DNA from: Arcicella aurantiaca
GTDB taxonomy: Bacteria; Bacteroidota; Bacteroidia; Cytophagales; Spirosomataceae
Direction of reading: 5' to 3'
NCBI RefSeq assembly: GCF_003148625.1
Contig: NZ_QGGO01000036.1
Coordinates: forward strand, 1-57,664
DNA: 57,664 nt
Part shown: positions 14,623-30,368 of the stretch, piece after piece
Numbering within the stretch: the stretch's first letter is position 1
How the letters are laid out: each line of letters begins with the position of its first letter
The notes under the pieces: generated by a model
The model's database searches: none
Seen by the model: only the letters and a program-made list of their open reading frames with translations
Told to the model about the DNA's origin: nothing
Program-made: the position numbers and the translations under genes

Positions 14623-16005
14623 ATGAAATTAGCTAATATTAAAATTGAAGGAAAAAGCACCTTCGGAGTGCTGAAAGGAGATATTGTTATTGATGCTCAT
14701 GCTTTGCAGGCACCAGTTATTGAAAATACTTTAGCATGGATAAATGCAGACGAAGCAACTAAATCTTCTTTTCAAACAGCGGTAGAGAATGCCAATGTTG
14801 AGCAATTGTTAGCAGAAAATAAAGCATTCAATATGATAGACGACCGTATTGAATTTTTACCTGCTGTACATGAACCAAAAAAAATTATCTGTGTAGGTCA
14901 TAATTTTAGAACACATATTTTGGAAATGAAAAGGGAGATTCCGAAATACGCTATGATTTTTGCAAAATATCATAATGTACTTGCTGGACATAAAGAAATC
15001 ATTCCAATTCCAGAGGTATCTAAAGAATTTGACTATGAAGCGGAATTAACGGTTGTCATCGGAAAACAAGCAAAAGCCGTTTCATTAGAAAATGCACTCG
15101 ACTACGTGGCAGGTTATACAGTTGCCAACGACCTCAGTGTTCGTGATTATCAACGTAGAACAATTCAGTTTTTACAAGGAAAATCGTTTGATAAATCTGG
15201 ACCAATTGGACCTTTCATGGTAACAAGAGACGAATTAAATGATGTTGATAAAGAACACATGGTACTTCGTTTGAATGGTCAGATTATGCAAGAAACACCA
15301 CTTGCGGATATGGTTTTCAGTGTTTCGGATTTAGTTTCTCAAATTTCGGAATACATGACCTTAGAACCTGGTGATGTGATACTTACGGGTACTCCAGGTG
15401 GCGTTGGGGCAGCTCGCACACCACCTGTATGGATTCAACATGGCGATACCATTGAAGTAGAAATTACCAATGTTGGAGTACTTAGAAATAGTTTTAGATT
15501 GCCTTCAAAATCGCAAGAGCAATACCCAAACATCGAGGAAATGAAAGCGTCATTACAAGCTGATAAACAAGCTTTTACTGATTTATTAAGCAATATTGGA
15601 GAACAAAATTTACACACAAGACCATATACCGATAGTTGGACTGTTGCGGAAGCCGTTGCTCATATTACAGATGCCATAGACTTTTTCCAACATGAAAGTA
15701 TTAAAGCATTGGCTAATCCTGCTGAAAAAGTAGGCAGACATAAAACCAATGAAAGACGTTTGGCTCGTATTGCAGAACATGGTGCAGATTCGGCAGAGCA
15801 ATTATCAGCACAAATTTCAAGCAGTATAGACAGTTGTTTGAGCTTTTTGGAAGGATTGACAGATGAAGATTTGGCTAAAAAAGTACAGCATAAATTGCCA
15901 AAATTCGGAGAAATGGAATTAGGGTCATTCCTAAATCATTTTGTGGTTGGACATAGCAAAGCACATCTTCGCCAATGTCTTAATTTACAAAATAGATTTG
16001 CGTAA
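14623..16005 (+). CDS. Fumarylacetoacetate-hydrolase-family protein fused to a DinB/MDMPI-like domain
   Basis: 460 residues in two domains. Residues about 80-293 are a FAH fold: metal ligands E139 and E141 (DYEAEL), D170 (ANDLSVRD), K187, and TGTPGGVG at 255-262; family and context suggest fumarylpyruvate hydrolase, giving fumarate and pyruvate. Residues about 305-460 are a DinB-like four-helix bundle with the metal triad H347, H444 and H448 (AHITD and VVGHSKAH). The mycothiol-dependent maleylpyruvate isomerase of actinobacteria belongs to this same superfamily. No separate isomerase gene is present, so I infer that the DinB part performs the missing maleylpyruvate to fumarylpyruvate step with a bacillithiol-like or other thiol. 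The fusion has no internal stop or frameshift. Confidence 0.85.
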   Translation: MKLANIKIEGKSTFGVLKGDIVIDAHALQAPVIENTLAWINADEATKSSFQTAVENANVEQLLAENKAFNMIDDRIEFLPAVHEPKKIICVGHNFRTHILEMKREIPKYAMIFAKYHNVLAGHKEIIPIPEVSKEFDYEAELTVVIGKQAKAVSLENALDYVAGYTVANDLSVRDYQRRTIQFLQGKSFDKSGPIGPFMVTRDELNDVDKEHMVLRLNGQIMQETPLADMVFSVSDLVSQISEYMTLEPGDVILTGTPGGVGAARTPPVWIQHGDTIEVEITNVGVLRNSFRLPSKSQEQYPNIEEMKASLQADKQAFTDLLSNIGEQNLHTRPYTDSWTVAEAVAHITDAIDFFQHESIKALANPAEKVGRHKTNERRLARIAEHGADSAEQLSAQISSSIDSCLSFLEGLTDEDLAKKVQHKLPKFGEMELGSFLNHFVVGHSKAHLRQCLNLQNRFA

Positions 16006-16218
16006 TGGGTAGTAAATAGGAGTGGGGATTGGGGGTTTAAGACTAACATAGACTTGATTATCAATAGTTTATGTGGTTTTTAAAATATAGCCTAAATTTG
16101 CATGATTACTTACTTCTACTTTGGCACTTTAAATAAATGGAGCAAATTTGACTTTCAGGAAGTTGAAAGGTAAATACTCAAATTACCATCTTTTTTTAGA
16201 GTGTCAAAGTAGATTTAG

Positions 16219-16342
16219 TACACTGTTTAATAAGTTATCTAAATAATTTTTATCCTAAAATCTTTGATTGTGGGAACTTCCCGAAAGTTTAACCCACAAT
16301 GGAATTGTTTCGGGAAGTTAAAATAACTTATTAAACAGTGTA
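16219..16342. repeat. MITE family C, copy 1
   Basis: A 124-bp element with perfect 20-bp terminal inverted repeats (TACACTGTTTAATAAGTTAT). It is flanked by TTTAG on both sides (16214-16218 and 16343-16347), a likely 5-bp target duplication. Inside is a second hairpin built on a GGGAACTTCCCGAAAGTT-like segment. It lies in the 528-base gene-free gap after the fusion hydrolase gene; nothing else was seen in that gap apart from a possible promoter near 16482. Confidence 0.8.
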
Positions 16343-16481
16343 TTTAGAGATTCTCCAAGATTATTGATAACTACCATCGTTTTGACTATCAATCATTTAT
16401 AAAATTATCACTTTATTTTGTCTCATTAGTTAACGAAAATATGTACTTAATTATCGAATAAAACTATTGAACTTTTTGTAT

Positions 16482-16489
16482 TAAATTTG
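16482..16489 (+). promoter_or_regulatory. Possible -7 element for the WYL regulator gene
   Basis: TAAATTTG fits the Bacteroidota TAnnTTTG consensus and lies 108 bases before the preferred ATG at 16597. No well-spaced -33 element was found. Confidence 0.35.
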
Positions 16490-16596
16490 AGCAGACGGTT
16501 TACAAAACCTTGTATTAGGCAAGCTACCAAAAGTTGCTTAGCTATCATTCCAAGCGACAAACCTACAACCAAACAAAATTTGCTGACTTTTACAGA

Positions 16597-17295
16597 ATGA
16601 AGGATAACGATACCAAAAGACTTTCGAGACTTGTAGCCATCTTAACAATTTTACAGACAAAACGACTTGTTACTTCTACAAAACTTGCTGAAAAATTTGA
16701 TGTAAGCACACGAACTATTTATAGAGATTTAAAAGCATTAGAACAAGCTGGTGTTCCTATTTTGACGGAAGACGGGAAAGGTTACAGCCTAATGGAAGGC
16801 TATAAAATTCCACCGATAATGTTTAGCGAAAATCAAGCAAATGCTTTAATTCTTGCCGAGCAATTAGTTTTAAAAAATAGAGACAGCTCCCTAATTAAAG
16901 ATTATGCTGAAGCCATAGACAAAATAAAAGCTGTTTTAAAGCAAACGGAGAAGGACAAAGCTAATTTTCTCTCATTAAGAACAAAATTTGCTAAACTTGA
17001 TAATTTTGAAATTAAGAGTAACATATTATCTTCTTTACAAAATGCCCTTACCAATTTTCACATCGTAAAACTTGACTACATCAATGCTGAAAATAAAGAA
17101 AGTAAAAGAACCGTTGAGCCTTTTGCTTTAATAAATACAATGGAAAGTTGGCTTATGATTGCCTATTGTCATTTACGTAAAGACTTTCGTTTTTTTCGGC
17201 TTGATAGAATTGAAAAAATGCAAATCTTATCAGATAAATTCACTCCACATAAAATGACTTTACAAGAATTTTTTGAAAAACATCACAGCCACTAA
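16597..17295 (+). CDS. YafY-like transcriptional regulator (HTH + WYL domain)
   Basis: 232 residues from the ATG at 16597, which opens MKDNDTKRLSRLVAIL; the frame also extends 21 codons upstream to 16534, but that extension looks like leader sequence. An N-terminal winged helix-turn-helix (STKLAEKFDVSTRTIYRDLKAL) is followed by a WYL-type ligand domain (residues about 130-225; ESWLMIAYCHLRKDFRFFRLDRIEKM). Such regulators often control the adjacent gene. The DinB-like gene starts 69 bases later and has a palindrome in between, a candidate site for this protein. Confidence 0.88.
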   Translation: MKDNDTKRLSRLVAILTILQTKRLVTSTKLAEKFDVSTRTIYRDLKALEQAGVPILTEDGKGYSLMEGYKIPPIMFSENQANALILAEQLVLKNRDSSLIKDYAEAIDKIKAVLKQTEKDKANFLSLRTKFAKLDNFEIKSNILSSLQNALTNFHIVKLDYINAENKESKRTVEPFALINTMESWLMIAYCHLRKDFRFFRLDRIEKMQILSDKFTPHKMTLQEFFEKHHSH

Positions 17296-17302
17296 TCACC
17301 CT

Positions 17303-17337
17303 TGACATACCGTTGTCATAGACTCATTTTAATTTTG
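17303..17337 (+). promoter_or_regulatory. Palindrome and possible -7 element before the DinB-like gene
   Basis: TGACATACCGTTGTCA (17303-17318) is an inverted repeat with 5-bp arms. It is followed by TAATTTTG (17330-17337), which fits the TAnnTTTG element. The DinB-like ATG is at 17365. Spacing to an upstream TTG is not ideal (14 or 25 bases). Confidence 0.4.
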
Positions 17338-17364
17338 TTGCATAATAATTTAAACAATAACAAA

Positions 17365-17871
17365 ATGAGTGTCAAAAAAATAATAACAAGCTACGCAACT
17401 TACAATTTAAGTGCTAATAAGCAATTCGTGAATTGGTTAAGCAAACAATCAGAGGAACAACTTTTGCAAGAAGTTCCATCAAGTTTCAAAGGTATTCTTC
17501 AAACCTTAAACCACATTTGGGCTATTGAAGAAATGTGGTGTGCCGACCTTTTCAAAAACGACGATGCTGTAAATCGTTATGGTGTGCAAGACTTAAATTC
17601 CAAAGAGGTGTTTGAAGGATTATTAAACAGGTCTTCAATAATTGCAGAAAAAGTTAACCTACTAACAGACAACACTTTAGCTGAAAATATATCTATCAAA
17701 ACACCATGGTTTGAAGCGAATCTTACACTTGCAGAATATTTGCAACATCTTTTTAATCATGGTACTTATCATCGTGGACAAATTATAACCATTGCACACC
17801 ATTTGGGATTTACAGAAATGCCATCAACTGACTTTTTATTTTATTCTTTAATGGCATCAAACCAATCTTAA
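17365..17871 (+). CDS. DinB-family metal-binding protein (stand-alone)
   Basis: 168 residues counted from the ATG at 17365 (MSVKKIITSYATYN); the longer frame begins at a TTG inside the upstream palindrome and is unlikely. A DinB four-helix bundle with the metal triad H50, H132 and H136 (LNHIW and HGTYHRGQ). This superfamily includes thiol-dependent transferases and isomerases (MDMPI, bacillithiol S-transferase BstA/YfiT) as well as many proteins of unknown function. It is distant in sequence from the DinB half of the nearby fusion enzyme. It is probably controlled by the WYL regulator next to it. Confidence 0.85.
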   Translation: MSVKKIITSYATYNLSANKQFVNWLSKQSEEQLLQEVPSSFKGILQTLNHIWAIEEMWCADLFKNDDAVNRYGVQDLNSKEVFEGLLNRSSIIAEKVNLLTDNTLAENISIKTPWFEANLTLAEYLQHLFNHGTYHRGQIITIAHHLGFTEMPSTDFLFYSLMASNQS

Positions 17872-18690
17872 AACTACGGAATGAACTGTGTTAAAAATAT
17901 CACAAAAATTGTATCAATCCAAATATTACAACACATCCATTAACCTATGAAACGCTTTTTCAATTAGTCGGAATTTTGATGTCCTGCATTATCTTATGAC
18001 TATGAGAAAAATAGGTGTTTATAAACCATAGCAAGTGTTTTCATCTTAAAGCTGTTTAAACTTTTTATTTTGAGAAGAAATTTGAATCATTTTTCATCTG
18101 TTATTTTAATATTTGAAGCCCCTGCATAGCAGAGCAAAGGAGATGCCCAATCTTGAGTAAATATTGGATTAGCAGATTTAAAATGAACGGGTTTATGCCG
18201 AAAAGAAAGTTTAAATAGCTTTGTTTTTATCCCAATTTTAAAGATTTGATGAGTATTTTATAGAAGTCATCGTTCAAAACGCTACGGTTTATACACAAGT
18301 ATTTGAATATCTATTTAGAGCCATAGGCTCGGTTAAATTTTGTAGGGGTGGGTTTTAACCCAACGAAAATGATGCGAAATGCCATTTTAGAGCCAGATGC
18401 TCGACCCATTTTTAATGCCTCGTTCCTACGGAACTCAAAAAATGGTCATTTTCTTTTTCGGTGGGTTTTAACCCAACGCTACAAAATCGGTCAAGCCTAC
18501 GGCTTTTTTATTAGACTTCCTGCGAAAGTGTATTACAAAACATTTCCCTTTTCAAAGGAACAATCCTTTTGAAATGAAATGATATTTTTAGGGCTATCTT
18601 TTCCAAAGGTGATATTGATAAACTATCAATGAAACAAGCAAGTTGAATTTTACCCTAAAATTCGCCACAAATTATTGTTAAAAATTAGGC
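17872..18690. other. Gene-free debris region with repeat fragments
   Basis: About 820 bases without an intact gene. It contains a fragment of the family A MITE interior (about 18117-18165), and two copies of a GTGGGTTTTAACCCAACG palindrome at 18349-18366 and 18461-18478 set in AGCC-TAGGCT-like repeats (18317-18505). A lone 26-bp family A end lies at 18510-18535. The open frame at 18348-18572 runs across these repeats and is not believable as a gene. Confidence 0.7.
18510..18535. repeat. Solitary end of MITE family A
   Basis: ATTAGACTTCCTGCGAAAGT plus a few bases, matching the outer end of the family A copies, but with no second end within 200 bases. It looks like a remnant or a one-ended recombination product. 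Confidence 0.7.
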
Positions 18691-18807
18691 GTGAATAATT
18701 TAAGCAATGAACAATATTTTACCAAAAGACCAACAGATTATCAAGAAGTAGGCGTGTCGGCATCAGATGGGCGAAGTGGTGTGACTACTTTGAGTTTTAA
18801 GTGGTAA
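18682..18807 (+). pseudogene. C-terminal remnant of a TonB-dependent receptor
   Basis: 41 residues remain in frame after an in-frame stop at 18679: KLGVNNLSNEQYFTKRPTDY, a short linker, ASDGRSGVTTLSFKW, then a stop. The NLSNEQYFTKRPTDYP-like stretch, SDGRS and the terminal aromatic residue are characteristic of the last two beta-strands of TonB-dependent receptors of the siderophore type. Nothing upstream continues the frame. It shows that a receptor gene once stood here, before the peptide-secretion locus. Confidence 0.72.
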
Positions 18808-18987
18808 AATTTGAATAAACATGGGTAGTAATAGCTCAGACACCTTCATTACTTAAAACTGTTTCAGAAATATGCCATTCGTGGTACAATTTTTGCTTGA
18901 AATAGGCATATAATCAACCCATAATAATCCATTCAAACTTGTTATTTCATCAATATTTCAATAACAGTTTGGGTAGTTTTTTAATTT

Positions 18988-21180
18988 ATGCCAAGTTTTC
19001 CTTTTTTCAAGCAATTCGATACAATGGATTGCGGGCCTACCTGTTTGCGAATGATAGCCAAGCATTTTGGTAAAAATTATTCGTTACAAACCTTGCGTGA
19101 AAAAAGCGGAATCAACAAAGAAGGCGTGTCGATGGCGGGTATCGGAATGGCTGCCGAATATATCGGTTTTCGTACCTTAGTCGCCAAAGTTTCCTTTGAA
19201 AAACTTGTCTCAGATGCTCCCCTGCCCTTTATTGCTCACTGGAAACAAAACCATTTTGTGGTGGTTCATGCCATCAAAAAAGATAAAGTTTTTGTGGCAG
19301 ACCCCGGTGTTGGTTTGGTAGAATATTCGATAAAAGATTTTAAAACCAATTGGGTAAGTAGTCAGAATAATGCCAACGAACCAACGGGCATTGTAATGTT
19401 GTTTGAAACCACGCCCAAGTTTTTTCTCAACGACGAAGACAAACAAGATTCAGGGCTATCTTTTAAGTATATTTTCAATTACCTTTTTACCTACAAAAGC
19501 CTTCTCATGCAAATTGCGTGGGGTTTATTGATGGGTGGGGCTTTACAATTAATTCTGCCTTTTCTTACCCAATCCATTATTGATATTGGTATCAATACCC
19601 GAAATCTCAGCTTCATTAATCTAATTCTTATCGGGCAATTTGTGCTTTATTTTGGGCGGTCGGTCGTGGAATTTATTCGGGGTTGGATTTTCCTACACAT
19701 TGGCTCAAGAATCAACATTTCTATCCTTTCAGATTTCTTCATTAAGTTGCTTCGACTACCCATTTCGTATTTCGACACCAAGTTTCAAGGAGATTTATTA
19801 CAACGTATCGGCGACCATGAAAAAATAGAAAGTTTTCTGACCAATACCGTCATTAGTACCATTTATGGGCTTTTCAATTTTATCATTTTCAGTATTGTTC
19901 TGAGCATTTTTAGTGGTAAAATATTCCTAATGTTTTTGGGAGGAAGCATTTTGTATGTGCTTTGGATTTGGCTTTTTCTCAATCAAAGAAAAATTCTTAA
20001 CAACCGAAGTTTTGAGATAGCTGCTAAAAGTCAAACCGCTACTTTACAGATAATTGATGGTATTCAAGAAATAAAATTGACCAATAGCGAACAACAAAAA
20101 CGCTGGGATTGGGAGAACATTCAAGCCTCATTATTTAGGCTTAATATGAAAGGACTGGGGCTTTCACAAATTCAGAGTGCAGGAGCTTTATTTATTAATG
20201 AAGGTAAGAATATTCTTATTACTTACCTCACGGCTCGTGCGGTGATTGAGGGCGAAATGACACTCGGAATGATACTTTCGGTAGGGTATATTTTGGGTAT
20301 GTTGAATGGACCAATCGAACAGTTTATCCATTTTATCCAAGATTATCAAGATGCAAAATTGAGCCTTGAACGCCTCAATGACATTCATAAAGTAGAAGAC
20401 GAAGAACCCCTTGGCAAACAGCGGTCGGTACAACTTTCTACCAATAAAACGCTGGCATTCACCAGTGTATCGTTCAAATACCCCGGTACGAGCCGTAATA
20501 TTTTAGACAATATAGATTTTGTAATTCCACAAGGAAAAACCACTGCTATTGTAGGGTCAAGTGGAAGTGGCAAAACGACAATTTTGAAATTGTTGCTTAA
20601 ATTTTATCAACCAAGCCAAGGACAAATCATCGCAGGAAATACTTTTTTGAGTGGCATTAATCATAACTATTGGCGAAGTAGATGCGGTGCGGTGCTTCAA
20701 GATGGCTTTGTTTTTTCGGATACCATCGCCCGAAATATTGCCGTTGGCGAAGATTTTGTGGAATTAAATCGCCTCAATCATGCCGCCCAAGTTGCTAATA
20801 TTGCTGAGTTTATAGAAGGTTTACCTTTGGGTTATAATACAAAAATTGGAGCAGAAGGTAACGGGCTAAGTCAGGGACAAAAACAGCGTTTATTAATTGC
20901 CAGAGCCGTTTATAAAGACCCCGACTATATATTTTTCGATGAAGCGACCAATGCGTTGGATGCCAATAATGAGAAAATTATTATGGAAAATCTGACGGAG
21001 TTTTTTAAGGGGAAAACGGTCATTGTGGTTGCCCATAGATTGAGTACCGTAAAAAATGCCGACCAAATTGTGGTGCTTGAACAAGGACGAATCGTAGAAA
21101 AAGGTACACATGAACAACTTACCAACTTACGAGGATATTATTATTCTTTGGTAAAAAATCAGTTAGAATTAGGGAATTGA
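18988..21180 (+). CDS. C39 peptidase-containing ABC exporter (PCAT, bacteriocin type)
   Basis: 730 residues. N-terminal C39 cysteine peptidase (about 1-130) with a complete catalytic set: oxyanion Q9, C15 (DCGPTC), H89 (HFVVVHA) and D105 (ADPG). Six-span exporter membrane domain about 165-450. C-terminal ATPase with Walker A GSSGSGKTT near 523-531, signature LSQGQKQRL, and Walker B YIFFDEATNALD. PCATs cut leader peptides after Gly-Gly and export the mature peptide through the inner membrane. It heads an operon with HlyD (78 bases downstream) and Crp/Fnr genes. A matching GG-leader peptide gene lies at 23342-23623. Confidence 0.95.
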   Translation: MPSFPFFKQFDTMDCGPTCLRMIAKHFGKNYSLQTLREKSGINKEGVSMAGIGMAAEYIGFRTLVAKVSFEKLVSDAPLPFIAHWKQNHFVVVHAIKKDKVFVADPGVGLVEYSIKDFKTNWVSSQNNANEPTGIVMLFETTPKFFLNDEDKQDSGLSFKYIFNYLFTYKSLLMQIAWGLLMGGALQLILPFLTQSIIDIGINTRNLSFINLILIGQFVLYFGRSVVEFIRGWIFLHIGSRINISILSDFFIKLLRLPISYFDTKFQGDLLQRIGDHEKIESFLTNTVISTIYGLFNFIIFSIVLSIFSGKIFLMFLGGSILYVLWIWLFLNQRKILNNRSFEIAAKSQTATLQIIDGIQEIKLTNSEQQKRWDWENIQASLFRLNMKGLGLSQIQSAGALFINEGKNILITYLTARAVIEGEMTLGMILSVGYILGMLNGPIEQFIHFIQDYQDAKLSLERLNDIHKVEDEEPLGKQRSVQLSTNKTLAFTSVSFKYPGTSRNILDNIDFVIPQGKTTAIVGSSGSGKTTILKLLLKFYQPSQGQIIAGNTFLSGINHNYWRSRCGAVLQDGFVFSDTIARNIAVGEDFVELNRLNHAAQVANIAEFIEGLPLGYNTKIGAEGNGLSQGQKQRLLIARAVYKDPDYIFFDEATNALDANNEKIIMENLTEFFKGKTVIVVAHRLSTVKNADQIVVLEQGRIVEKGTHEQLTNLRGYYYSLVKNQLELGN

Positions 21181-21201
21181 TTAGATGCTATCGTAGAGCG
21201 A

Positions 21202-21232
21202 ACATCCCGAAAGTTTGAAACTTTCGGGATGT
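21202..21232. terminator. Strong intercistronic hairpin
   Basis: A perfect 15-bp stem with a one-base formal loop: ACATCCCGAAAGTTT, G, then the reverse complement. It lies between the exporter stop and the HlyD start. There is no T-run, so it is more likely an RNA-stability or attenuation element than a full terminator. The CCCGAAAGTT core recurs in other hairpins of this replicon (16290, 23225, 32205). Confidence 0.6.
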
Positions 21233-21258
21233 TGTAATCCAATACGTTAAGAAGAATT

Positions 21259-22548
21259 ATGGAACAAAAAATATACAAAGAACTTCGCAGTGATTCGGTG
21301 CAGGAAATAATGAACTATCAACCTACTTGGCTAATTCGTTATGGGACTGCTTTGTTCACTATTTTCTTCCTGTTGATGTTTGGAGGCACATTTTTCATTA
21401 GCTATCCAGATATTGTGAAGGGAACTTTAAAACTGACTTCTTACAATATGCCAAAAGCTGTTGTGGCAAAAACAGCAGGTAAAGTCATTAAATTATTCGT
21501 AAAAGAAAACACATTTGTAGAACAAAATGATGTTTTGGCGTATTTAGAATCTACCGCCAATCATCAAGAAGTTTTAGCACTTTCAGCACAATTATCAGTT
21601 ATTGAAAAAGAGGTTTCAGAAGGACGTTATGCCAAATTGAATGCTTTGCAAAAAGGGAATTTCATAAACCTTGGAGAACTACAACCTGATTTCCAACAAT
21701 TTCAATCCTCCTTAATTCAATTACAAACGATGCTTTCTTCGGGTTTTGGAAACCAAAAAAAGAATATTATCGTAAATGAGTTAGAAAATTCCAAATACTC
21801 CGCCTCTAAACTCAATGAACAAAGGCAAATCTACCAAAGAGATTATATCCTTGCTGAAAAAGACTTTGCAACCCAACAACGCTTGGCTCGTCAGGGTATA
21901 ATTTCGGCTAATGAATTATCGAAAGAAGAAAGTAAAATGTTAGGTAAACAATTGGCTTTAAAGCAGATAGAATCTCAAATAATCAATAATCAAGCAGAGC
22001 AAAGTGGTAAATCAAAGGAATTATTGGAGTTAGATAAAAATCTTTTTGAACAGAAAAAGTATTCTTTTGAAGGCTTAAAAACACTCATTAGTGCCGTCGA
22101 TAAATGGAAAAACACCTATATTTTAACGGCTCCCTCGGCGGGATATATTTTATTTCAAAGCAATATTCAAGAGAATCAGGTAGTAGCGGCAAATCAAGAA
22201 ATATTTTATATTGGCAATCAGCAAAATAATTTACCGATTGGTCAAATCCAGATTGCCCAAGATAATTTAGGGAAAGTCAAAGCGGGTCAAAAAGTAATTA
22301 TCAGATTCAATAGTTATCCATCAGAGGAGTTTGGAACGGTGGATGGAATTGTAGAGTTTATCTCTCAAATTCCCGAAAAAGACAATAGCTATTTAGTTAC
22401 CGTAAAACTACCGAATGGCTTAACCACCACCTATCATAAAAAATTAAGTTTCAGAAATGGAATGTTGGCAAATGCAGATGTTGTTACCGAAGATAAATCA
22501 TTGGCAGCCAAGATTTTATACCAATTCAGAAAAGCACTTCAACGATAA
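21259..22548 (+). CDS. HlyD-family periplasmic adaptor (membrane fusion protein)
   Basis: 429 residues. One N-terminal membrane anchor (about residues 28-50), then a biotinyl-lipoyl-like half (AVVAKTAGKVIKLFVKENTFVEQNDVLAYL), long coiled-coil hairpin segments (about 95-275), the second lipoyl half (LTAPSAGYILFQSNIQENQVVAANQEIFYIG) and a beta-barrel domain. It links the C39-ABC exporter in the inner membrane to a TolC channel. Its place between the exporter and the Crp/Fnr gene, with TolC nearby, gives a complete type I secretion set. Confidence 0.93.
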   Translation: MEQKIYKELRSDSVQEIMNYQPTWLIRYGTALFTIFFLLMFGGTFFISYPDIVKGTLKLTSYNMPKAVVAKTAGKVIKLFVKENTFVEQNDVLAYLESTANHQEVLALSAQLSVIEKEVSEGRYAKLNALQKGNFINLGELQPDFQQFQSSLIQLQTMLSSGFGNQKKNIIVNELENSKYSASKLNEQRQIYQRDYILAEKDFATQQRLARQGIISANELSKEESKMLGKQLALKQIESQIINNQAEQSGKSKELLELDKNLFEQKKYSFEGLKTLISAVDKWKNTYILTAPSAGYILFQSNIQENQVVAANQEIFYIGNQQNNLPIGQIQIAQDNLGKVKAGQKVIIRFNSYPSEEFGTVDGIVEFISQIPEKDNSYLVTVKLPNGLTTTYHKKLSFRNGMLANADVVTEDKSLAAKILYQFRKALQR

Positions 22549-22552
22549 ATAT

Positions 22553-23116
22553 ATGACCTATTCATTCAACATATTTAAAGAGTATGAATCACTAAGTCCA
22601 TGTATTCAGCATCAAATATTGTCTAAACTACAAGTTTTACAATTTGCCAAACATGACTATATTCTAAAAAAGGGAGATATTTGTAAAGGTATTTTTCTGA
22701 TTGAAAAAGGGTGTTGCCGTACCTATCTTGAAAACGGAGAGAAAGAAATAACAACCAATTTTGGCATTGATAAAAACATTATTTGTAGTGCTTATAGTTA
22801 TTTTTCTCAAACGCCTTCAAATGAGTATATTCAAACATTAGAAGACACCACTTGTTACTTTTTTTCCTATAAAAGTATCCATTTACTTTTGGCAGAACAC
22901 GTAGAATTTAATGTATTCGTCCGAAAAATTTATGAATCTTTATTGATGAATGAGATAAATTTACTCAATTCCATCAGGTCGATGAGTGCTTTGGAACGTT
23001 ATGAACATTTCATGGAAAAAACCCCGCAAGTATTACAAAGAGTGCCTTTAGGACATTTAGCGTCCTTTTTGGGAATGAGCCAAGAAACGCTTAGCCGAAT
23101 GAGGGGTAAAGTATAG
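22553..23116 (+). CDS. Crp/Fnr-family transcriptional regulator
   Basis: 187 residues from the ATG at 22553 (MTYSFNIFKEYESLSP), 4 bases after the HlyD stop; the longer frame starting at 22457 lies inside hlyD and is rejected. An N-terminal cyclic-nucleotide-binding-like beta barrel (ILKKGDICKGIFLIEKGCCRTYL) and a C-terminal winged helix (LGHLASFLGMSQETLSRMRGKV). No cysteine cluster for an iron-sulphur cluster is present. It belongs to the Bacteroidota Crp-like group of unknown ligand. It probably regulates the peptide precursor or the secretion operon. Confidence 0.9.
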   Translation: MTYSFNIFKEYESLSPCIQHQILSKLQVLQFAKHDYILKKGDICKGIFLIEKGCCRTYLENGEKEITTNFGIDKNIICSAYSYFSQTPSNEYIQTLEDTTCYFFSYKSIHLLLAEHVEFNVFVRKIYESLLMNEINLLNSIRSMSALERYEHFMEKTPQVLQRVPLGHLASFLGMSQETLSRMRGKV

Positions 23117-23126
23117 ACAGCTTCAA

Positions 23127-23288
23127 TACACTGTTTAGTAAGTTTTAGGGAGAAATTTAATTCTCTGAAAGAACTTCTCGAAAGTAGAAAAAACTTTCGA
23201 GAAGTATAAAACGCCGTCTTCACTTCCCGAAAGTTATTTTTACTTTCGGGAAGTTCAACAGTCAGAAAACTTATTAGATAGCTTCAAA
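23127..23288. repeat. MITE family C, copy 2 (diverged)
   Basis: Starts TACACTGTTTAGTAAGTTTT like copy 1 at 16219 and ends with an AAACTTATTAGAT segment. Inside are two hairpins of the CTTTCGAGAAG and CTTTCGGGAAG type. It is bounded on both sides by AGCTTCAA (23119-23126 and 23281-23288), which may be a target duplication. It separates the Crp/Fnr gene from the converging precursor gene. Confidence 0.6.
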
Positions 23289-23291
23289 TAA

Positions 23292-23320
23292 AAAAGCCTT
23301 GAAATTCAAGGCTTTTATTT
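23292..23320. terminator. Bidirectional terminator between the Crp/Fnr and precursor genes
   Basis: Hairpin AAAAGCCTTGAA / TTCAAGGCTTTT followed by a T-rich run. It lies 22 bases past the stop of the GG-leader precursor on the minus strand, and also serves the plus-strand operon. Confidence 0.8.
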
Positions 23321-23341
23321 TTATATCTCAAAAAATGCAAA

Positions 23342-23623
23342 TTATCTGCAACCACCTAATGAAAAGTTAAGTGAGAATGAGAATCCTGTATTGCAAGTTG
23401 TTGGCTTTGGCGTACAAGAAGTTGTAGGAGTTGTATAACCACCTGTGTTACATGATGGTGCTGGAGCCGTATAACACGGTGCTGGAGTTGGTTTTGGTGC
23501 TGGCTGACACACAACTGGTTTTGGAGCACAAAGACTTAATAATGAGAAAAGTCCGAAAGTACCACCTTTTACTTCTTCTGTACTTGTGATTTCAAGGGCT
23601 GCAAAATTATTTAATGATTTCAT
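23342..23623 (-). CDS. Double-glycine leader peptide precursor, Cys/Pro/Thr-rich (putative secreted bacteriocin-like peptide)
   Basis: 93 residues. A 21-residue leader, MKSLNNFAALEITSTEEVKGG, ends in GG with acidic and hydrophobic residues spaced as in C39 substrates. The predicted mature part (72 residues) contains seven cysteines, is rich in Pro and Thr, has repeated APKP/TPAP/PTTSC-like units, and ends in FSFSLNFSLGGCR. No conserved antimicrobial motif is recognised. It lies beside a full C39-ABC/HlyD/TolC export set, which supports the leader call. The odd cysteine number allows three disulphides plus one free or linked thiol. No modification enzyme is adjacent. Confidence 0.8.
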   Translation of the reverse strand: MKSLNNFAALEITSTEEVKGGTFGLFSLLSLCAPKPVVCQPAPKPTPAPCYTAPAPSCNTGGYTTPTTSCTPKPTTCNTGFSFSLNFSLGGCR

Positions 23624-23688
23624 TTTATTGATATTTTAAGGGTTAAATCTATGCTATTTTTATACCATAGAATATTAGAGTTACTATA

Positions 23689-23696
23689 CAAATGTA
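23689..23696 (-). promoter_or_regulatory. Possible -7 element for the precursor gene
   Basis: TACATTTG on the minus strand fits TAnnTTTG and lies 66 bases before the precursor ATG. No good -33 element was seen at the usual distance, so the promoter may need an activator such as the neighbouring Crp/Fnr protein. Confidence 0.4.
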
Positions 23697-23838
23697 TGAA
23701 TTTGAACTTGGGATACATAAGCCCATAAATGCTTTTTGATATATGTCAAAAAGAAAAAAAATGCCCTTAAATGGTACGATTTTTGGTGTAAAATAGAAAA
23801 CATTACCCACTTCAAAATTATAGATTACTATACGTTTT

Positions 23839-25275
23839 ATGTTCAGAATATCCGTGTTCGTTTTGTTGTTACATACAATTCAAGGTTTTTCGCAGACTAT
23901 AAAACCATTGACCTTGCAGGAATGTATCAGTAAAGCCCTTGCCAATAATCTTCAAACACGACAAATTCAATATCAGATTCAAGAAAACGAAAGCCGAATA
24001 ATATCCTCAAAATTCAGTCAGTACCCTAATGTAAACGGTTCATTTTCTCAAAATTTTGCTTCTGGTAGAATCATCGACCCCTTCACGAATGTTATCATTA
24101 ATCAAAATACCAATTATCAAAATTTAGGCATCAATTCATCCGTTGTGGTTTTTGAAGGAGGAGTTTTGCGTAATAATATTCGCTTGAATGAATTGGGAGC
24201 AAAGTCGAGCCAACAAGAATTGAATGCCACTAAAGAAAATATCAAACTCAAAGTTATTGAAGCATTTTTTCAAGTATTAAATGCCCAAGAACAATTAGCA
24301 ATTACCAAGAAGATTTTTGAAAGTTCAACTTTTCAACTCAATCGAATCGAAACGTTATTGAAAGAAGGTATGGCTTCAAAAGCGGTTTTGTTTGATATTC
24401 AAGCCCAAATTTCGGGAGAAGAATTGGGCGTAGCAAATGCAGAAAGTGCTTTGGAATATGCAAAAATTGTGCTTTTGCAGGTAATGAACGAAAATAAAAC
24501 AACGATAGAAATTGATACAAAAAACATGGTTCAATCCACGACAGAACCTTATAGTTTTCCTGTCAATGCAGTCATGCAAAGTGCCATCGGCACACAATCT
24601 ATTGTAGATGTAGCTAAAACTAAGGTAGAAATATCTGAAATTGGGATTGATTTGGCAGAAGCCAGCAATAAACCAAGTGTTAGTGCTAATTTGAATATGG
24701 GGACAAATTATTCGAGTGCTGCCCCCGACCAACGATTTGTTTCAGATGGGAAACCGTCAAAATTTATTGAATCCAAATCAAACGACTATGTTTTATCAAA
24801 CGGGCAGAAACAAAATATTATCAAGCAAGTTGAAGTACCCAGTGGCGATTTTCAAAAATTAGGATATACCAATCAATTAGGATATAATTTTAGTACCATC
24901 GTTGGTTTCAATGTTAGAGTACCCATTTTCAATGCTTTTGATTCAAAAATAAAGATTCAGCAAGCCAATTTATCAAAACTGAAAGCTGAAAATGAACTGA
25001 ATATTACGCAAATCCAAGTCAAAAATACGGTAGCATTGGCTTACCGAAATATGCAAACGGCTTATCTAAAATTAGGTTTAATCAACAAACAATTAGCAGC
25101 TCTTGAAGTAGCTTTTGACCTGACGAAGAAGAAATTTGAAGAAGGAAATTTGAGTTCTTTGGAATATACCCTTGCCAAAAATAACATTGATAAAGTGCGT
25201 GTAAGCGTAGTACAAGCCAAATACGAGTATATTTTCAGAACGAAGGTTTTGGATTTTTATGCGGATAGAATTTGA
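23839..25275 (+). CDS. TolC-family outer membrane channel protein
   Basis: 478 residues. Signal peptide at the N-terminus (MFRISVFVLLLHTIQGFSQ), then the outer membrane efflux protein repeat: LTLQECISKALANNLQTRQIQYQIQENESRI in the first half and a related LSKLKAENELNITQIQVKNTVALAYRNMQTAYL block in the second, both coiled-coil. It should form the outer membrane duct for the C39-ABC/HlyD exporter. It is transcribed divergently from the precursor gene, with a 215-base shared upstream region. Confidence 0.93.
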   Translation: MFRISVFVLLLHTIQGFSQTIKPLTLQECISKALANNLQTRQIQYQIQENESRIISSKFSQYPNVNGSFSQNFASGRIIDPFTNVIINQNTNYQNLGINSSVVVFEGGVLRNNIRLNELGAKSSQQELNATKENIKLKVIEAFFQVLNAQEQLAITKKIFESSTFQLNRIETLLKEGMASKAVLFDIQAQISGEELGVANAESALEYAKIVLLQVMNENKTTIEIDTKNMVQSTTEPYSFPVNAVMQSAIGTQSIVDVAKTKVEISEIGIDLAEASNKPSVSANLNMGTNYSSAAPDQRFVSDGKPSKFIESKSNDYVLSNGQKQNIIKQVEVPSGDFQKLGYTNQLGYNFSTIVGFNVRVPIFNAFDSKIKIQQANLSKLKAENELNITQIQVKNTVALAYRNMQTAYLKLGLINKQLAALEVAFDLTKKKFEEGNLSSLEYTLAKNNIDKVRVSVVQAKYEYIFRTKVLDFYADRI

Positions 25276-25520
25276 GTTTTCGATATTCGATGTTTGTAAA
25301 CGAAAGTTGGATTCAAAACCATTTTAAAATAGAGAGGTTACACAGAGAGCCACAGAGAAAACAATAGAAAACCACAGAGATGAACCTCTTAATTAAACTC
25401 TCTGACCGACCAAGTAAATAGAAATTCAATCTTAGGATTTATTTTGGTAGCCTCTAAAAATGTCGTCAAATATAATGCTAACAAGTTATGTCGCACTCTA
25501 TAAACTATATAACTGAGCAA
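25276..25520. other. Intergenic region with dispersed repeat
   Basis: No gene seen. It contains a short repetitive patch (ACACAGAGAGCCACAGAG and relatives, 25338-25390) of the kind scattered in many Bacteroidota genomes. Confidence 0.5.
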
Positions 25521-25555
25521 AAAGCGTAACAAAGCTTTAAGCCTTATTACGCTTT
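25521..25555. terminator. Terminator downstream of the SDR operon
   Basis: Stem AAAGCGTAA / TTACGCTTT around a 17-base loop, followed on the minus strand by a short T-run. It lies 16 bases past the stop of the 25571-26335 gene. Confidence 0.7.
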
Positions 25556-25570
25556 CTTTGGGGGAAGATA

Positions 25571-26335
25571 TTATAAATTCATTCCGCCAGAAACTTCAAT
25601 TCGTTGTCCATTAACCCAACTGGCTTCTTCAGAACAAAGAAAGGCAACAACAGGTCCAATATCATTTGGTAAACCTACCCGACCAAGAGCTGTAACTTCC
25701 GCAATGTGTTTGTTTACATGTTCATTATCTCTTACTAAACCACCACCAAAATCAGTTTCGATTGCACCCGGTGCTATTGTGTTGACCGTAATACCACGCA
25801 CGCCTAACTCTTTGGCTTGATAACGGCTAAGCACCTCAATAGCCCCTTTCATTGCCGAATAAGCTGCGAATCCCGGATTACAGAAACGTGTTAAACCTGT
25901 AGAAAGATTTATGATACGTCCGCCGTCATTCAAAATTGATAATGCTTTTTGGGTTAAAAAGAAAACTCCTTTAAGATGAATGTTAAATAATTCGTCAAAG
26001 GCTTCTTCATTTGTGGCTTCAAATGGTGCATGAATACCGATGCCTGCATTATTAATGAGAAAGTCGAATTTTTCTGTCTGAAAATCAGCTTTCAATACAT
26101 CTTTGACCTGCTCAATAAATAAATCAAAGCTTTGTACTTTGCCTGTATTTAATTGTAAAGCAGCAGCATTTACGCCAAGATTTTTAATTTCGGCAACTAC
26201 ATCCATTGCTTCATTTTGTTTACTATTATAGGTAATAATTACATTTATACCTTTTTTTGCGAGGCTTAATGCCATGTTTTTGCCTAAACCACGGCTACCG
26301 CCAGTTACTAAGGCTATTTTTGAAATACTTCTCAT
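25571..26335 (-). CDS. SDR-family oxidoreductase
   Basis: 254 residues, a classical short-chain dehydrogenase/reductase. Coenzyme motif TGGSRGLGKNMA (TGxxxGxG) near residue 11, NNAGIG, the catalytic Ser and YSAMKG (YxxxK) near residue 160, then APGAIETDF. Likely NADP(H)-linked; the substrate is unknown. Third gene of a minus-strand set with the SnoaL-like lipoprotein and a second SDR, behind an AraC regulator. Confidence 0.9.
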   Translation of the reverse strand: MRSISKIALVTGGSRGLGKNMALSLAKKGINVIITYNSKQNEAMDVVAEIKNLGVNAAALQLNTGKVQSFDLFIEQVKDVLKADFQTEKFDFLINNAGIGIHAPFEATNEEAFDELFNIHLKGVFFLTQKALSILNDGGRIINLSTGLTRFCNPGFAAYSAMKGAIEVLSRYQAKELGVRGITVNTIAPGAIETDFGGGLVRDNEHVNKHIAEVTALGRVGLPNDIGPVVAFLCSEEASWVNGQRIEVSGGMNL

Positions 26336-26437
26336 TTTTTTATTTGCTTTTTGTTAAAAAATAATTGTTTTTTGAAATAATTAAGACTTTTCAAATAGTC
26401 ATTCTAAATTAGAGGGTATGCTATTGTAGAACCTTTC

Positions 26438-26857
26438 CTACTTAGTTTGCCCTATTTCTAATTGATAAAACTTCCCGTTACGATTGCAATAAAACTTAAA
26501 ATAAGCTTTGAAATCACCCCATTTATCGCTGTGAAAGTCTCCGTAAATAGTCAATCCGTTATCGTTGACTTCTTCGATACTGGTAAACCACTCCTGACCG
26601 ATAGCCTCTGTTGAAAACTTTTTAAAATTTCGAGGATGACCATCGTCTAACAGTTTGGCATCTTCGGTAAAAAATGAAAGCCACTCATCTGAATTTCCAG
26701 ATTGCCAAGCCTCAAAGGCCGCCTTCACAGTTGGATTTGTTAGTTTACTAATTTCCATTGATGGTATAATTTGATGGGAATGTTTTGTGTTAGATTGTCC
26801 GCAGGCAAATTGACTGCCTACGAACAAAAAAAGTATGATATTTTTCAATTTTACCAT
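26438..26857 (-). CDS. SnoaL/NTF2-like exported protein
   Basis: 139 residues from the ATG at 26857 (MVKLKNIILFLFVGSQFACGQ). The start is followed by a hydrophobic signal with a possible lipobox ending at Cys19, so it is probably a lipoprotein. The rest looks like a small alpha+beta barrel of the NTF2/SnoaL type (AAFEAWQSGNSDEWLSFFTEDAKLLDDG). Such proteins are often small isomerases, hydrolases or binding proteins. It begins 11 bases after the end of the upstream SDR gene and is co-transcribed with it. The longer frame starting at 26887 overlaps the SDR and is less likely. Confidence 0.7.
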   Translation of the reverse strand: MVKLKNIILFLFVGSQFACGQSNTKHSHQIIPSMEISKLTNPTVKAAFEAWQSGNSDEWLSFFTEDAKLLDDGHPRNFKKFSTEAIGQEWFTSIEEVNDNGLTIYGDFHSDKWGDFKAYFKFYCNRNGKFYQLEIGQTK

Positions 26858-26867
26858 GCTTTTCAAT

Positions 26868-27620
26868 TTATAGAGTAGCACCACCATTCACAAGCAAATG
26901 TTGACCATTCACAAACGAAGAAAGGTCACTGGCAAAAAATTCGGCTACATCTGCTACGTCTTTCACTTCAGCCATCCTACCCATCGGGCAACTTTCTATA
27001 ATCATTTTTCGCAATTCTTGATAACCGCCTTCTTCTGCAAAAATGCCAGAATGGTCAACAGCATAAGGAATGATGGAATTAACGGTAACCCCTCGGTGTC
27101 CAATCTCTTTAGAAAGCACATCTACCATGTAGCGTGGAGTGGTTTTACTGCCACCATATACAGCCATTCCTGGTATAGGAAATACCGTAGTACTTGAAGC
27201 AATATAAATAATACGTCCTTTGTCTTGAATCGCTTTAGCTGCCTGCTGCATGGTGAAATAAGCCCCTTTTGTGTTAATAGAAAATAAACGGTCAAACTGC
27301 TCTTCGGTAAAAGCTGTAACTGGAGTTTCTACCATTTCAATGCCTGCATTTGCTACTACAATATCAATTTTGCCAAATACATTAATGGCTTCATCAAAAA
27401 GTTTTTGAATATCATTTACCTTACTGACATCCGCTTGCACAGCGATGACTTTAACACCCATTGCGGTAATGTTAGACACTACTTCATCAGCAGATGCTTT
27501 GTCTTTTGAATAATTGATGATAATGTCTGCACCTAATGAAGCATATCTTTCGGCAATGGCTTTTCCTAAACCTCTTGCTGAGCCTGTTATAAGGGCTACT
27601 TTGTTGTTTAAACTTCTCAT
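26868..27620 (-). CDS. SDR-family oxidoreductase
   Basis: 250 residues from the ATG at 27620 (MRSLNNKVALITGSARGLGKAIAERYA). TGSARGLG coenzyme loop, NAGIEM, catalytic YGGSK (YxxxK), and a C-terminal SSFVNGQHLLVNGGATL typical of 3-oxoacyl-reductase-like SDRs. About 40% similar by eye to the SDR at 25571, so the pair may be an old duplication. First gene of the SDR/SnoaL/SDR operon. The substrate cannot be deduced. Confidence 0.9.
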   Translation of the reverse strand: MRSLNNKVALITGSARGLGKAIAERYASLGADIIINYSKDKASADEVVSNITAMGVKVIAVQADVSKVNDIQKLFDEAINVFGKIDIVVANAGIEMVETPVTAFTEEQFDRLFSINTKGAYFTMQQAAKAIQDKGRIIYIASSTTVFPIPGMAVYGGSKTTPRYMVDVLSKEIGHRGVTVNSIIPYAVDHSGIFAEEGGYQELRKMIIESCPMGRMAEVKDVADVAEFFASDLSSFVNGQHLLVNGGATL

Positions 27621-27730
27621 TTCTTTTTTTATATTGTTATTAATAAATTGACAATACAAAGTTGAAATGAAAAATCAGCCAGAATTATACATGAATTATA
27701 GGAATACTTACAAGATTCAGAGAATGAGGG

Positions 27731-28702
27731 CTAAATCATGGATTTGCGATAGGATGCAGGTGTAGTTTGTGTATATTTTTTGAAGTAATTACTAAAATGT
27801 GTGGTTTCGAGAAAGCCCAATTGAAAGGTAATTTCTTTAATTGATAATGCTGAATTGTGGAGAAGAGCTTTTGCTTGAGCAATCATTTTATCCGAAATCC
27901 AAGTGCTTACTGTTTTCCCCGTTTTACTTTTAATCACATTATTCAAATAGCTTTCATTGAGCATTTGTAAAGCCGCATAATCACTTACTCTTAATTGTTT
28001 GGTAACTTTTCCCTCTACCAATTCCCGAAAATGCTGTTCTAAATTAGTTTTAAAGGTTTTTACGATTTGAGAACTTTTATTACCCTCATAAATTGGATTG
28101 TACTCTTTCCAAAACGATTCTTTTACTTTTAATAATAATACTACCAAAAGGCTACCTAATATTTTGTTTTTAAACTTAGACGCAGAGCAAAACTCTTTTT
28201 CAATCTGAAGATAAATTTCTTCAAACTCGATAAAATCGTGTGCAGGCAAGGTTCTTGGGTATATGGTTTCGGATAACAAAAATGGAAATTCATTAAAAAT
28301 ATCAGGATGAACATTCTCTCTAAGAAACGTTTCTGTAAAAGTTATCAAACAAACATCTTCTATTTCAAACCATTCAAAAGACTTATAATGACCTGGATTT
28401 GTAAAATAAATAGTACCTGGCTGAGTAGCAAAAGAGACATCATCTGTTGTGTATTTTCCTCGAGCATCTTTGACAAATAGAAATGAAAAGTAGTTGGGAC
28501 GAAACCCATTTGACTTGAATGGTAAGGTAGGATGGAGATGTTTTAAATTATTAATTGTGAAATTGTCGCTATCCAATATACTATCAGTAGGCAAACCCAT
28601 TGATTTATACGTATCATAAAAGGTATCAAAAATTAGAATCTTATCTGACATTGGGACTATTTTCTTGTTAATTGATTTATAATGGTCAATTGTAAATTTC
28701 AC
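27731..28702 (-). CDS. AraC-family transcriptional regulator
   Basis: 323 residues; a shorter start at 28651 (MSDKILIFDTFYD) is also possible and fits family lengths. The N-terminal half is a cupin-like effector region, and the C-terminal 100 residues hold the AraC double helix-turn-helix, ending in FLETTHFSNYFKKYTQTTPASYRK. It lies just upstream of the SDR operon in the same direction, so it is the likely activator of those genes. Confidence 0.85.
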   Translation of the reverse strand: MKFTIDHYKSINKKIVPMSDKILIFDTFYDTYKSMGLPTDSILDSDNFTINNLKHLHPTLPFKSNGFRPNYFSFLFVKDARGKYTTDDVSFATQPGTIYFTNPGHYKSFEWFEIEDVCLITFTETFLRENVHPDIFNEFPFLLSETIYPRTLPAHDFIEFEEIYLQIEKEFCSASKFKNKILGSLLVVLLLKVKESFWKEYNPIYEGNKSSQIVKTFKTNLEQHFRELVEGKVTKQLRVSDYAALQMLNESYLNNVIKSKTGKTVSTWISDKMIAQAKALLHNSALSIKEITFQLGFLETTHFSNYFKKYTQTTPASYRKSMI

Positions 28703-29433
28703 AAAAATTAGTTCATATTGGTGATATTAACAAATATGTTAGCATATCCCAAAACTTTTGGCAAATGTTCTACTTTAAATTTTCATTTAGGTAGTATTCA
28801 TTTCTGACTTCGACAATTAAAAGGAGGGAGATAAAAACGAAGAGTTAAAATCAGTGCATAGGTATATAGATACTATAGCACATCTAAATTAAGTATATAT
28901 TTATCTACAAACAAGCTATTAAAATATACTTTGAATAATATACAATAAATATATACCAATTCATTAACACTAAAGTCCACTTTTTGATTTTGGAGAATTG
29001 TCTATTTAAACGGGCGTTTGATTGGACTGGAAATTTTGGAGGGATACTATCGGTTATTTTAAACGCAATACTTTTCTTGATTCTTGGGATTCTGATTCTT
29101 GGAATCAAGCTTTGGTTCTTAGATTCAGATTCTTGGAATCACGTGTTGGTTCTTAGTTCTGATTTTGGATTCACCGTTAAGCCTATTTCAATATCCTTAT
29201 TTTCCCAATTAAAGTGGTCTATAAAAACGGTGCTATTGTGATAACAATAACACCGCTCAAGTTCGCATACTTGAAATAAATATTATTAACTGTAATTGAT
29301 ATAAAGAAGCTTTTAATTTTAAACCTAAAGCTTGGATTTTATACAGTTTTAGAAGAGTCTCATTTGTAGATTTTACAGCTATTGTGTTTCAGTTTAAATG
29401 ATGATTTCTGTGTTAAATATATGCGATAAATGA
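28703..29433. other. Gene-free region with degenerate repeats
   Basis: About 730 bases. At 29078-29170 a run of GATTCTTGGAATC-like units repeats imperfectly (GATTCTTGGGATTC, GATTCTTGGAATCAAG, GATTCTTGGAATCACG). A hairpin with arms CGGTGCTATTG / CAATAACACCG lies at 29228-29255 and may terminate transcription. The 85-codon frame at 28984-29241 is made of these repeats and is not credited as a gene. Confidence 0.6.
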
Positions 29434-29596
29434 TTAGACTTCCTGCGAAAGTGTTTTATGATTGAAAAATGGTATATTTTCGAGTGAAAATAGCGGGAAT
29501 TTTGAAAGCATAGCAGAGCTACGGTTGAAAAATTTTCTCTATTTGTAGCCGAAAAGATGTTGTTTTACGACTTAAAACACTTTCGCAGGAAGTCTA
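29434..29596. repeat. MITE family A, copy 2 (long form)
   Basis: About 163 bp with ends TTAGACTTCCTGCGAAAGTG and its inverse. The interior carries the segment GCATAGCAGAG and a CTATTTGTAGCCGAAAAGATG stretch shared with the other long copies. It lies just downstream of the LytTR regulator, in the same orientation as copy 3. Confidence 0.85.
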
Positions 29597-29690
29597 TTAT
29601 ATTTTAAAATGTAATCATGCTTAGAAAGGGTAATCTCCATCTTAACTTTTACTCCTCCAAAAGTGACTCATTTTCAATGAAATACTCTAT

Positions 29691-30368
29691 TTACTTCTCA
29701 AAAAGGTCTTTCTTTGAAAGTGGTATTATCGTATTTTTTATTACTACATTTTTAGCACTATACTTCTCAATTTTATCTTTGTTAACTATAAATGCCCTAT
29801 GAATTTGAATGAATTTTGAGGGAGGTAATAATTCTAAGATTTGCGAAATAGTAGCCCGAGATTTAAACGTTTTTTCATTGGTGTAAAAGAGTAAATAATT
29901 TCCCTCTGAATTGATGAAATTGATGTCGTCTAACAATAACTCAACTTTATATTCACCATCTTTCACCAAAATACTATGTTTCGGTTTGTCTTCTTTCGAA
30001 GATTTTATGAGTGCCAATTCAATAGACGCTATCAAGTCGCTGTTTTTGAATGGTTTGGTTAGATAAGAGTAGGGCGAAGTTGCAACAGCTTCGCTGATGA
30101 CTTTGGCATTTTCGTAGGCAGTTAGATAGATAAATGGTACTTTTTGTTTGTTTTGAATGAGATTCCCCAAACTAATCCCATCCATTTCTCCATCACCCAG
30201 ATTGATGTCAAGAATAGCGAGGTCAACCAACTCTTTATTGAGAATTGTCAAGGCTTCATTAGCGTTTTTAGCTTCTAAAACCTGATAGCTATTTTCTTGA
30301 AGAATTTTCTTAGTGAGTCTTCTATTCAGAAAATCATCTTCTACGATTAGTATTACTTTTGAGTTCAT
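29691..30368 (-). CDS. LytTR-family response regulator
   Basis: 225 residues from the ATG at 30368 (MNSKVILIVEDDFLNRRL). Receiver domain (residues 1-120) with acidic pocket E10-D11-D12, phospho-acceptor in LAILDINLGDGEMDG, and the conserved KPF near residue 107. The C-terminal LytTR DNA-binding domain (about 130-220) contains IHRAFIVNKDKIE. It follows the TPR histidine kinase by 11 bases and is its partner. Confidence 0.92.
   Translation of the reverse strand: MNSKVILIVEDDFLNRRLTKKILQENSYQVLEAKNANEALTILNKELVDLAILDINLGDGEMDGISLGNLIQNKQKVPFIYLTAYENAKVISEAVATSPYSYLTKPFKNSDLIASIELALIKSSKEDKPKHSILVKDGEYKVELLLDDINFINSEGNYLLFYTNEKTFKSRATISQILELLPPSKFIQIHRAFIVNKDKIEKYSAKNVVIKNTIIPLSKKDLFEK

Follow-up and report, generated by a model that had tools for sequence, protein, structure and literature searches.

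Among the described exported peptides, the glycocins (sublancin, glycocin F and pallidocin) combine a Cys-rich peptide bearing a double-glycine (GG) leader with a C39 transporter and a SunS-type glycosyltransferase (GT), and their Cys spacing is comparable to that of the peptide family treated here. Bacteroidetocins are Cys-containing GG peptides of Bacteroidota exported by a double-glycine-peptidase ABC exporter; they have a 42-residue mature part, a leader of 15-16 residues and a thiol oxidoreductase gene, and they kill, and inhibit their own producers, yet lack an obvious immunity protein (PMC6671954). A third point of comparison is given by the pinensin-type class I lanthipeptides and the thiopeptide pyridine synthases. 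Here, we analyzed contig NZ_QGGO01000036.1 of Arcicella aurantiaca (57,664 nucleotides, hereafter the window), in which the locus at 18988-25275 would, as judged from its sequence, make and export a peptide that belongs to a small family of Bacteroidota GG peptides, itself apparently undescribed. It can be read as a GG-peptide export locus whose relatives carry an unusual enzyme pair. The family and its exporter, the order of the genes and the promoter module are legible in the sequences compared, as is the lack of a match in this genome to two accessory genes of the relatives.

The locus resembles those of the glycocins in its Cys-rich GG peptide and C39 exporter, in the GT2-type enzyme of its relatives and, for most members, in two Cys pairs with a 5-7 residue spacing that flank a loop with further Cys. 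However, the peptides are Pro-rich with seven or eight Cys, the path includes TolC, the relatives have a neighbor of the elimination-domain fold, the GT comes closest by profile to chondroitin- and galactosyl-type enzymes, and the enzymes were not found in the window genome; the GT had no match there, and a GT2-type gene is present in the cluster of six of six relatives. The Pro-rich sequence speaks against glycocin-like helices, and the Cys spacing is partly alike. Bacteroidetocins, set apart here by their description and not by comparison of sequences, share with the locus the absence of an obvious immunity gene, but here the mature part has 72 residues instead of about 42, a Crp/Fnr gene is present and relatives have a GT. 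Published descriptions of both bacteroidetocin and glycocin clusters include a disulphide oxidoreductase gene, and none was noticed around the window peptide. With the class I lanthipeptides and pyridine synthases, the relatives share the fold of the GT partner and a homologous GT in a pinensin-type cluster (L119); the differences are that six peptide loci gave no match to the L119 LanB N-terminal domain or LanC, and that the Arg residues of the lanthipeptide motif are missing in the partner.

The mature peptide following the GG has a mass of 7.4 kDa, with 12 Pro and 12 Thr among its residues, and has neither a Pfam nor an NCBIfam match, in agreement with the initial annotation, which found this Pro/Thr/Cys-rich product unfamiliar. 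Relatives were found in six other genomes at 60.5-73.9% identity, and the ratio of nonsynonymous to synonymous substitution rates (dN/dS) was 0.19-0.29 in five of the six pairs that include the window peptide, similar to other pairs, the sixth being saturated. Because of these relatives, the dN/dS values and the conserved promoter module described below, the peptide is not a chance open reading frame (ORF). A six-frame search with a hidden Markov model (HMM) built from eight seed peptides (E 1e-4) over 222 genomes of the bacterial family placed members in seven of them, own genome included, and in 3 of 36 genera. A pattern scan of the contig collection matched 178 stretches, six of which were confirmed; the carriers are Emticicia aquatilis, an Emticicia metagenome-assembled genome (MAG), two Lacihabitans, a Cytophagaceae MAG and a Bacteroidetes MAG. 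Counting paralogues, there are 15 peptides in seven genomes: one each in G000 (own), G117 and G095, two each in G066 and G053, and four each in G096 and G132. The second G053 peptide is a looser member, found by pattern and missed by the HMM.

Common to the seven main members are the leader MKSL..F...EI...EEV.GG, the mature start TFGL, the motifs PK, CYTxP and GGY, and a Phe/Ser-rich tail ending near a Cys. The alignment has six invariant Cys columns and a further one shared by six of the seven. Five members have seven Cys and two have eight; mature parts in the family span 60-77 residues. The GG leader proposed in the initial annotation stands, as do the length of the mature part and its seven Cys; the leader has V at -4 and L at -12, but its -7 residue is T. 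GG with a hydrophobic -4 occurs in all seven main members, and -12 is L, M or F throughout. These features also bear on another possible product, a surface or matrix glycopeptide, in which hydrophobic ends (TFGLLSLL; alternating Phe/Ser) would flank a Pro/Thr/Cys stalk, copies cross-linked by the odd Cys would coat the cell or attach it to surfaces, and sugar would decorate it where the enzymes exist. The Phe/Ser tail and the CxPKP and CYTxP repeats recur across the family, paralogues in L080 and L094 extend the repeats, and seven Cys in five of seven members leave one unpaired. However, a C39 leader and mature parts of this length suit small soluble peptides, only seven of the 222 genomes carry the family, and the GT elsewhere sits in a lanthipeptide cluster; we regard this product as unlikely.

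A genome search for more precursors, which the initial annotation had proposed, returned a single precursor of the family in the own genome. One extra weak candidate (G000:C60, E 0.044, one stop) was rejected as a chance match, as were two genomes other than the own at E 0.08 and 0.09 in a search of the genus (three of eight genomes at E 0.1, neither of the two at E 1e-4). The other own C39 loci that were fetched encode unrelated GG peptides wherever the search patterns recognized any, and the peptide was absent from the viral contigs and plasmids searched. As separate observations, L043:14488-15971 (own contig C32), between two C39 exporters, holds a tandem array of six small lanthipeptide-like peptides whose leaders read LDKET...L and whose tails read CC..SC, and L067:5127-7323 holds six near-alike Cys-free GG peptides in tandem with a C39 exporter nearby.

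The peptide gene lies on the strand opposite to the exporter genes, outside their operon and with a promoter of its own. Alignment of the seven upstream regions revealed in all of them the palindrome TTTGAY-N4-RTCAAA, the 13-base block CAAAAAYCRTRCC and a -7 box TAnnTTTG, which we take to be the Bacteroidota-type consensus. The distance from block start to palindrome start is 35 bp in six promoters and 36 bp in one. Between the palindrome center and the start of the -7 box, five promoters have 46 or 47 bp and the other two 56 or 57 bp, a difference of one helical turn. Neither joint pattern occurs elsewhere in the 849,273 fetched bases (47 stretches, some overlapping); each gave eight rows because L068 and L097 overlap. 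Neither block nor palindrome was found within 300 bp of any of the eight second or paralogous peptides. In the own genome, three places carry the 18-base palindrome and none its reversed control. Within the window by itself, the count of the shorter palindrome does not stand out (two against 0.66 expected); the block with at most one mismatch gave three matches against 0.93 expected. The argument for a promoter module rests on conservation rather than rarity, among seven sequences that are related.

The recognition helix reads QETLSR or KETLSR in the six regulators compared, and this helix (..ETLSR.., E..SR) presumably suits a TTGAT-N4-ATCAA-type site. With such a helix and a site in seven of seven promoters, Crp/Fnr regulation appears likely from sequence: the regulator would bind the TTGAY-N4-RTCAA palindrome and switch on the separate promoter of the peptide gene. 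Oxygen-sensing FNR holds a 4Fe-4S center in an N-terminal Cys cluster; none of the six regulators has such a cluster, which speaks against FNR proper, and in the window regulator the first Cys is at 17, followed by 44, 54 and 55. The initial annotation had placed the regulator in the exporter operon, and it is indeed on the same strand as the ABC and HlyD genes, 4 bp behind the latter. However, since it is tail to tail with the peptide gene in seven of seven genomes, and since the exporter query had no match in the stretches L095 (19.0 kb) and L096 (18.0 kb), its constant partner appears to be the peptide rather than the exporter. The conserved switch points to this regulator as the one probably relevant to the peptide. 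A dedicated regulator and a strict promoter module would also fit a signal peptide, sensed by kin with feedback through the Crp/Fnr protein, but no sensor kinase was noticed among the adjoining ORFs, read by eye, the ligands of Crp/Fnr proteins are small and intracellular, and known GG pheromones are short; this role is, in our estimate, highly improbable. In Lacihabitans sp. CCS-44 the Crp/Fnr frame is split (L069:13580-14145, same place in L100), either as a pseudogene or by an assembly slip.

The peptide of all six relatives is accompanied by a GT2-type gene and a neighbor of the elimination-domain fold, a pair that lies beyond the window and therefore escaped the initial annotation. Profile searches against PDB sequences gave the GT assignment stated above, with no SunS-named entry in the list, an absence that proves nothing, as holds for any family missing from the profile or fold lists. 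The partner has the LanB elimination-domain or pyridine-synthase fold (PF14028, Lant_dehydr_C), and has FFFFFDSERGYHLKVF in place of the FFFIRYWEGGQHIRFRI of the lanthipeptide protein; the missing Arg residues have a catalytic role. By tblastn, which reveals close homologues only, neither the window nor L098-L103 matched the L119 LanB N-terminal domain or LanC at E 0.01, and the eight neighboring ORFs of L098-L103 scanned with Pfam contained no lanthipeptide family. A PDB sequence search with the partner gave nothing convincing, and NisB and the L119 protein gave no useful alignment by sequence. It is possible, if tentative, that the two proteins form a peptide-modifying pair of a new kind, the LanB/pyridine-synthase fold having been recruited to work with a GT and not with a glutamyl-tRNA-dependent domain; the partner might present the Cys/Thr/Pro repeats for serial glycosylation or, in the boldest version, remove sugar from activated Thr/Ser to leave dehydro-residues captured by Cys, a sugar-dependent thioether route, and the window strain would be a natural version without the pair that kept peptide and switch.

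Our literature search, outside which subscription papers mostly lay, found no paper on the peptide family or on a GT paired with a stand-alone elimination-domain protein. Peptide glycosylation as such would not be new, because Bacteroidales clusters of ribosomally synthesized and post-translationally modified peptides with GTs and C39 exporters are already known from genome mining, although the accessible part of that report describes no pairing of a GT with an elimination-domain protein (PMC10352776). Searches that sampled genomes and scored a small number of candidates in each gave GT matches in 0 of 395 genomes across the phylum at E 1e-25 and in 3 of 395 across the class at 1e-12; plasmids gave one partial match, in Acinetobacter. 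A partner match in G199 (E 8.8e-4) was part of a DNA polymerase III alpha protein, and partial GT-like matches in G631 and G785 were not counted, no C39-type exporter or PF14028 protein being noticed in their ORF lists; L142 matched the exporter through its ATPase domain only and L143 not at all. Apart from these, seven viral contigs (L134-L140, IMG/VR) hold GT-domain relatives with 29-46% identity over the N-terminal 155-200 residues. L141:1570-18046 contains a set like that of nonribosomal peptide synthetases (adenylation, carrier, condensation, phosphopantetheinyl transferase) beside two GT copies, a C39 exporter and two PF14028 proteins, possibly a hybrid peptide pathway. A small helix-turn-helix (HTH) protein precedes the GT-partner genes in three g23 loci (L065:6014-6280, HTH_3 by Pfam; L069:11008-11274; L103:7706-7951).

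The exporter is a peptidase-containing ABC transporter, with the Gln/Cys/His/Asp domain of Peptidase_C39 fused to ABC_membrane and ABC_tran and with Walker A, LSQGQ, Walker B and AHR motifs; adaptor (HlyD_3) and outer-membrane channel (OEP) complete the Gram-negative path. Gene coordinates, the four residues of the C39 domain and a complete C39-ABC/HlyD/TolC type I path were all as the initial annotation had them (Table 1). In a tree of 46 exporter rows, in which L045, L057 and L060 have no row, peptide-bearing exporters stand at three places; the four changes (three forced) computed include an unlabelled duplicate row (L068, the same locus as L097) and are read as three, or as two counting starred branches only, a figure not recomputed. 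The GT-partner-peptide-regulator cassette of G096 and that of G132 are separate from the exporter, and three further peptides adjoin the latter (L094 and L080). From these arrangements the exporters appear interchangeable, and the constant unit would be peptide and regulator plus, outside the window genome, the enzyme pair. The exporter is 88.5% identical to that of G117, compared with 82.3% for an rpoC fragment, and same-genus exporters reach 60% among those listed; nevertheless, recent horizontal transfer is not shown, because the synonymous distance is near saturation and no lower than that of rpoC.

Taken as a whole, the explanation that we favor, and hold to be somewhat better than an even bet, is that of an exported GG peptide with its own switch, modified with sugar in relatives, bare here and used in antagonism. 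The C39 domain would cut the precursor after the GG, and the product would exit via ABC-HlyD-TolC. In Emticicia, Lacihabitans and other relatives, the GT2 enzyme would modify the peptide first, most likely by attaching sugar to the unpaired Cys or to Thr or Ser, with the stand-alone LanB elimination-domain-fold protein presenting the peptide to it. In the window genome, the still-conserved peptide would be exported without sugar and folded by disulphides, which is plausible by analogy because unglycosylated sublancin is reported to keep its disulphide topology (PMC6405829). By analogy too, antagonism of neighboring bacteria, bacteriocin-like, is the most likely use. No modification gene was noticed beside the peptide in the window (ORFs read by eye, one Pfam-scanned), and no immunity gene, as the initial annotation had said; its suggestion that the peptide may not be a toxin is weak, since a missing immunity gene says little about toxicity when bacteroidetocins kill without an obvious one (PMC6671954).

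Several observations weigh against this explanation. GT and partner had no match in the window genome, so the sugar step is unsupported for this strain. The partner has no Pfam match, its PF14028 link is not significant when it is compared with a single lanthipeptide sequence (probability 1.7), and the supposed partner in the pinensin-type cluster is only 17-19% identical and weakly linked. In two genomes, cassette and exporter are on separate contigs (L095/L094 and L096/L080). Inspection by eye of the ORFs in 15000-30000 brought no gene for a disulphide or thiol oxidoreductase to notice, and toxicity would follow by analogy only. C39 leaders are expected to have hydrophobic residues at -7 and -12 (PMC12457901); -7 is T in five main members, A in one and I in one, so that six of seven lack a strongly hydrophobic residue there.

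The missing enzymes could also mean that the locus is a decaying remnant in this genome, its peptide exported but useless since the pair was lost: searched with tblastn up to E 5, the window gave only short pieces of GT or partner, the best at E 0.57. However, the ORF with its leader and seven Cys is intact, as are the promoter module and the exporter, and dN/dS is like that of other pairs, although it cannot be assigned to the time after a loss; we give decay little credence. Possibly, the window lineage never had the pair. In the named isolates Emticicia aquatilis and Lacihabitans soyangensis, the genes for the peptide, the enzymes and the regulator are found near one another, and the strain of the window is the version without the enzymes; a comparison of the two can directly test what the sugar and the stand-alone fold contribute.

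Table 1. Features of the peptide export locus in the window
Feature	Positions	Strand	Evidence
C39 peptidase-ABC exporter (PCAT), 730 aa	18988..21180	+	Pfam PF03412, PF00664, PF00005 above cut-off; Q9/C15/H89/D105 and ATPase motifs
HlyD-type periplasmic adaptor, 429 aa	21259..22548	+	PF13437 (HlyD_3) above cut-off
Crp/Fnr-type regulator, 187 aa, C-terminal helix ..MSQETLSRMR..	22553..23116	+	PF00027 (cNMP_binding) above cut-off, scanned on longer ORF from 22457
Bidirectional terminator-like hairpin, crp/peptide gene interval	23292..23316	both	11 pairs
GG-leader peptide, 93 aa (21 leader, 72 mature), 7 Cys	23342..23623	-	
Presumed Bacteroidota-type -7 box TACATTTG, peptide promoter	23689..23696	-	TAnnTTTG at -73 to -85 from start codon in 7/7 members including the window
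FNR-type palindrome TTTTGACATATATCAAAA	23734..23751	-	TTTGAY-N4-RTCAAA in 7/7 peptide promoters
Conserved upstream block CAAAAATCGTACC	23773..23785	-	35 bp start-to-start ahead of palindrome
TolC-type outer-membrane channel, 478 aa	23839..25275	+	PF02321 (OEP) above cut-off, two stretches
Possible second copy of conserved block, upstream of exporter	18883..18895	-	1 mismatch; weak

The regulator start at 22553 is likelier than that at 22457, given the regulator starts of the relatives. The TolC gene diverges from the peptide gene over 215 bp, and the regulator converges on it over 225 bp, with the hairpin in between. To the right of the locus lie a gene of short-chain dehydrogenase/reductase type (25571-26335, Pfam-scanned) and then others, read by eye. 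Rfam gave no match at gathering score. The source genome has 5.93 Mb and six C39 matches. Around HlyD-Crp, there are three intergenic palindromes, at 21206-21228, 23177-23201 and about 23223-23253 (the third by eye), of the type CCCGAAAGT..ACTTTCGGG / CTCGAAAGT..ACTTTCGAG, which we read as dispersed repeats or terminators.

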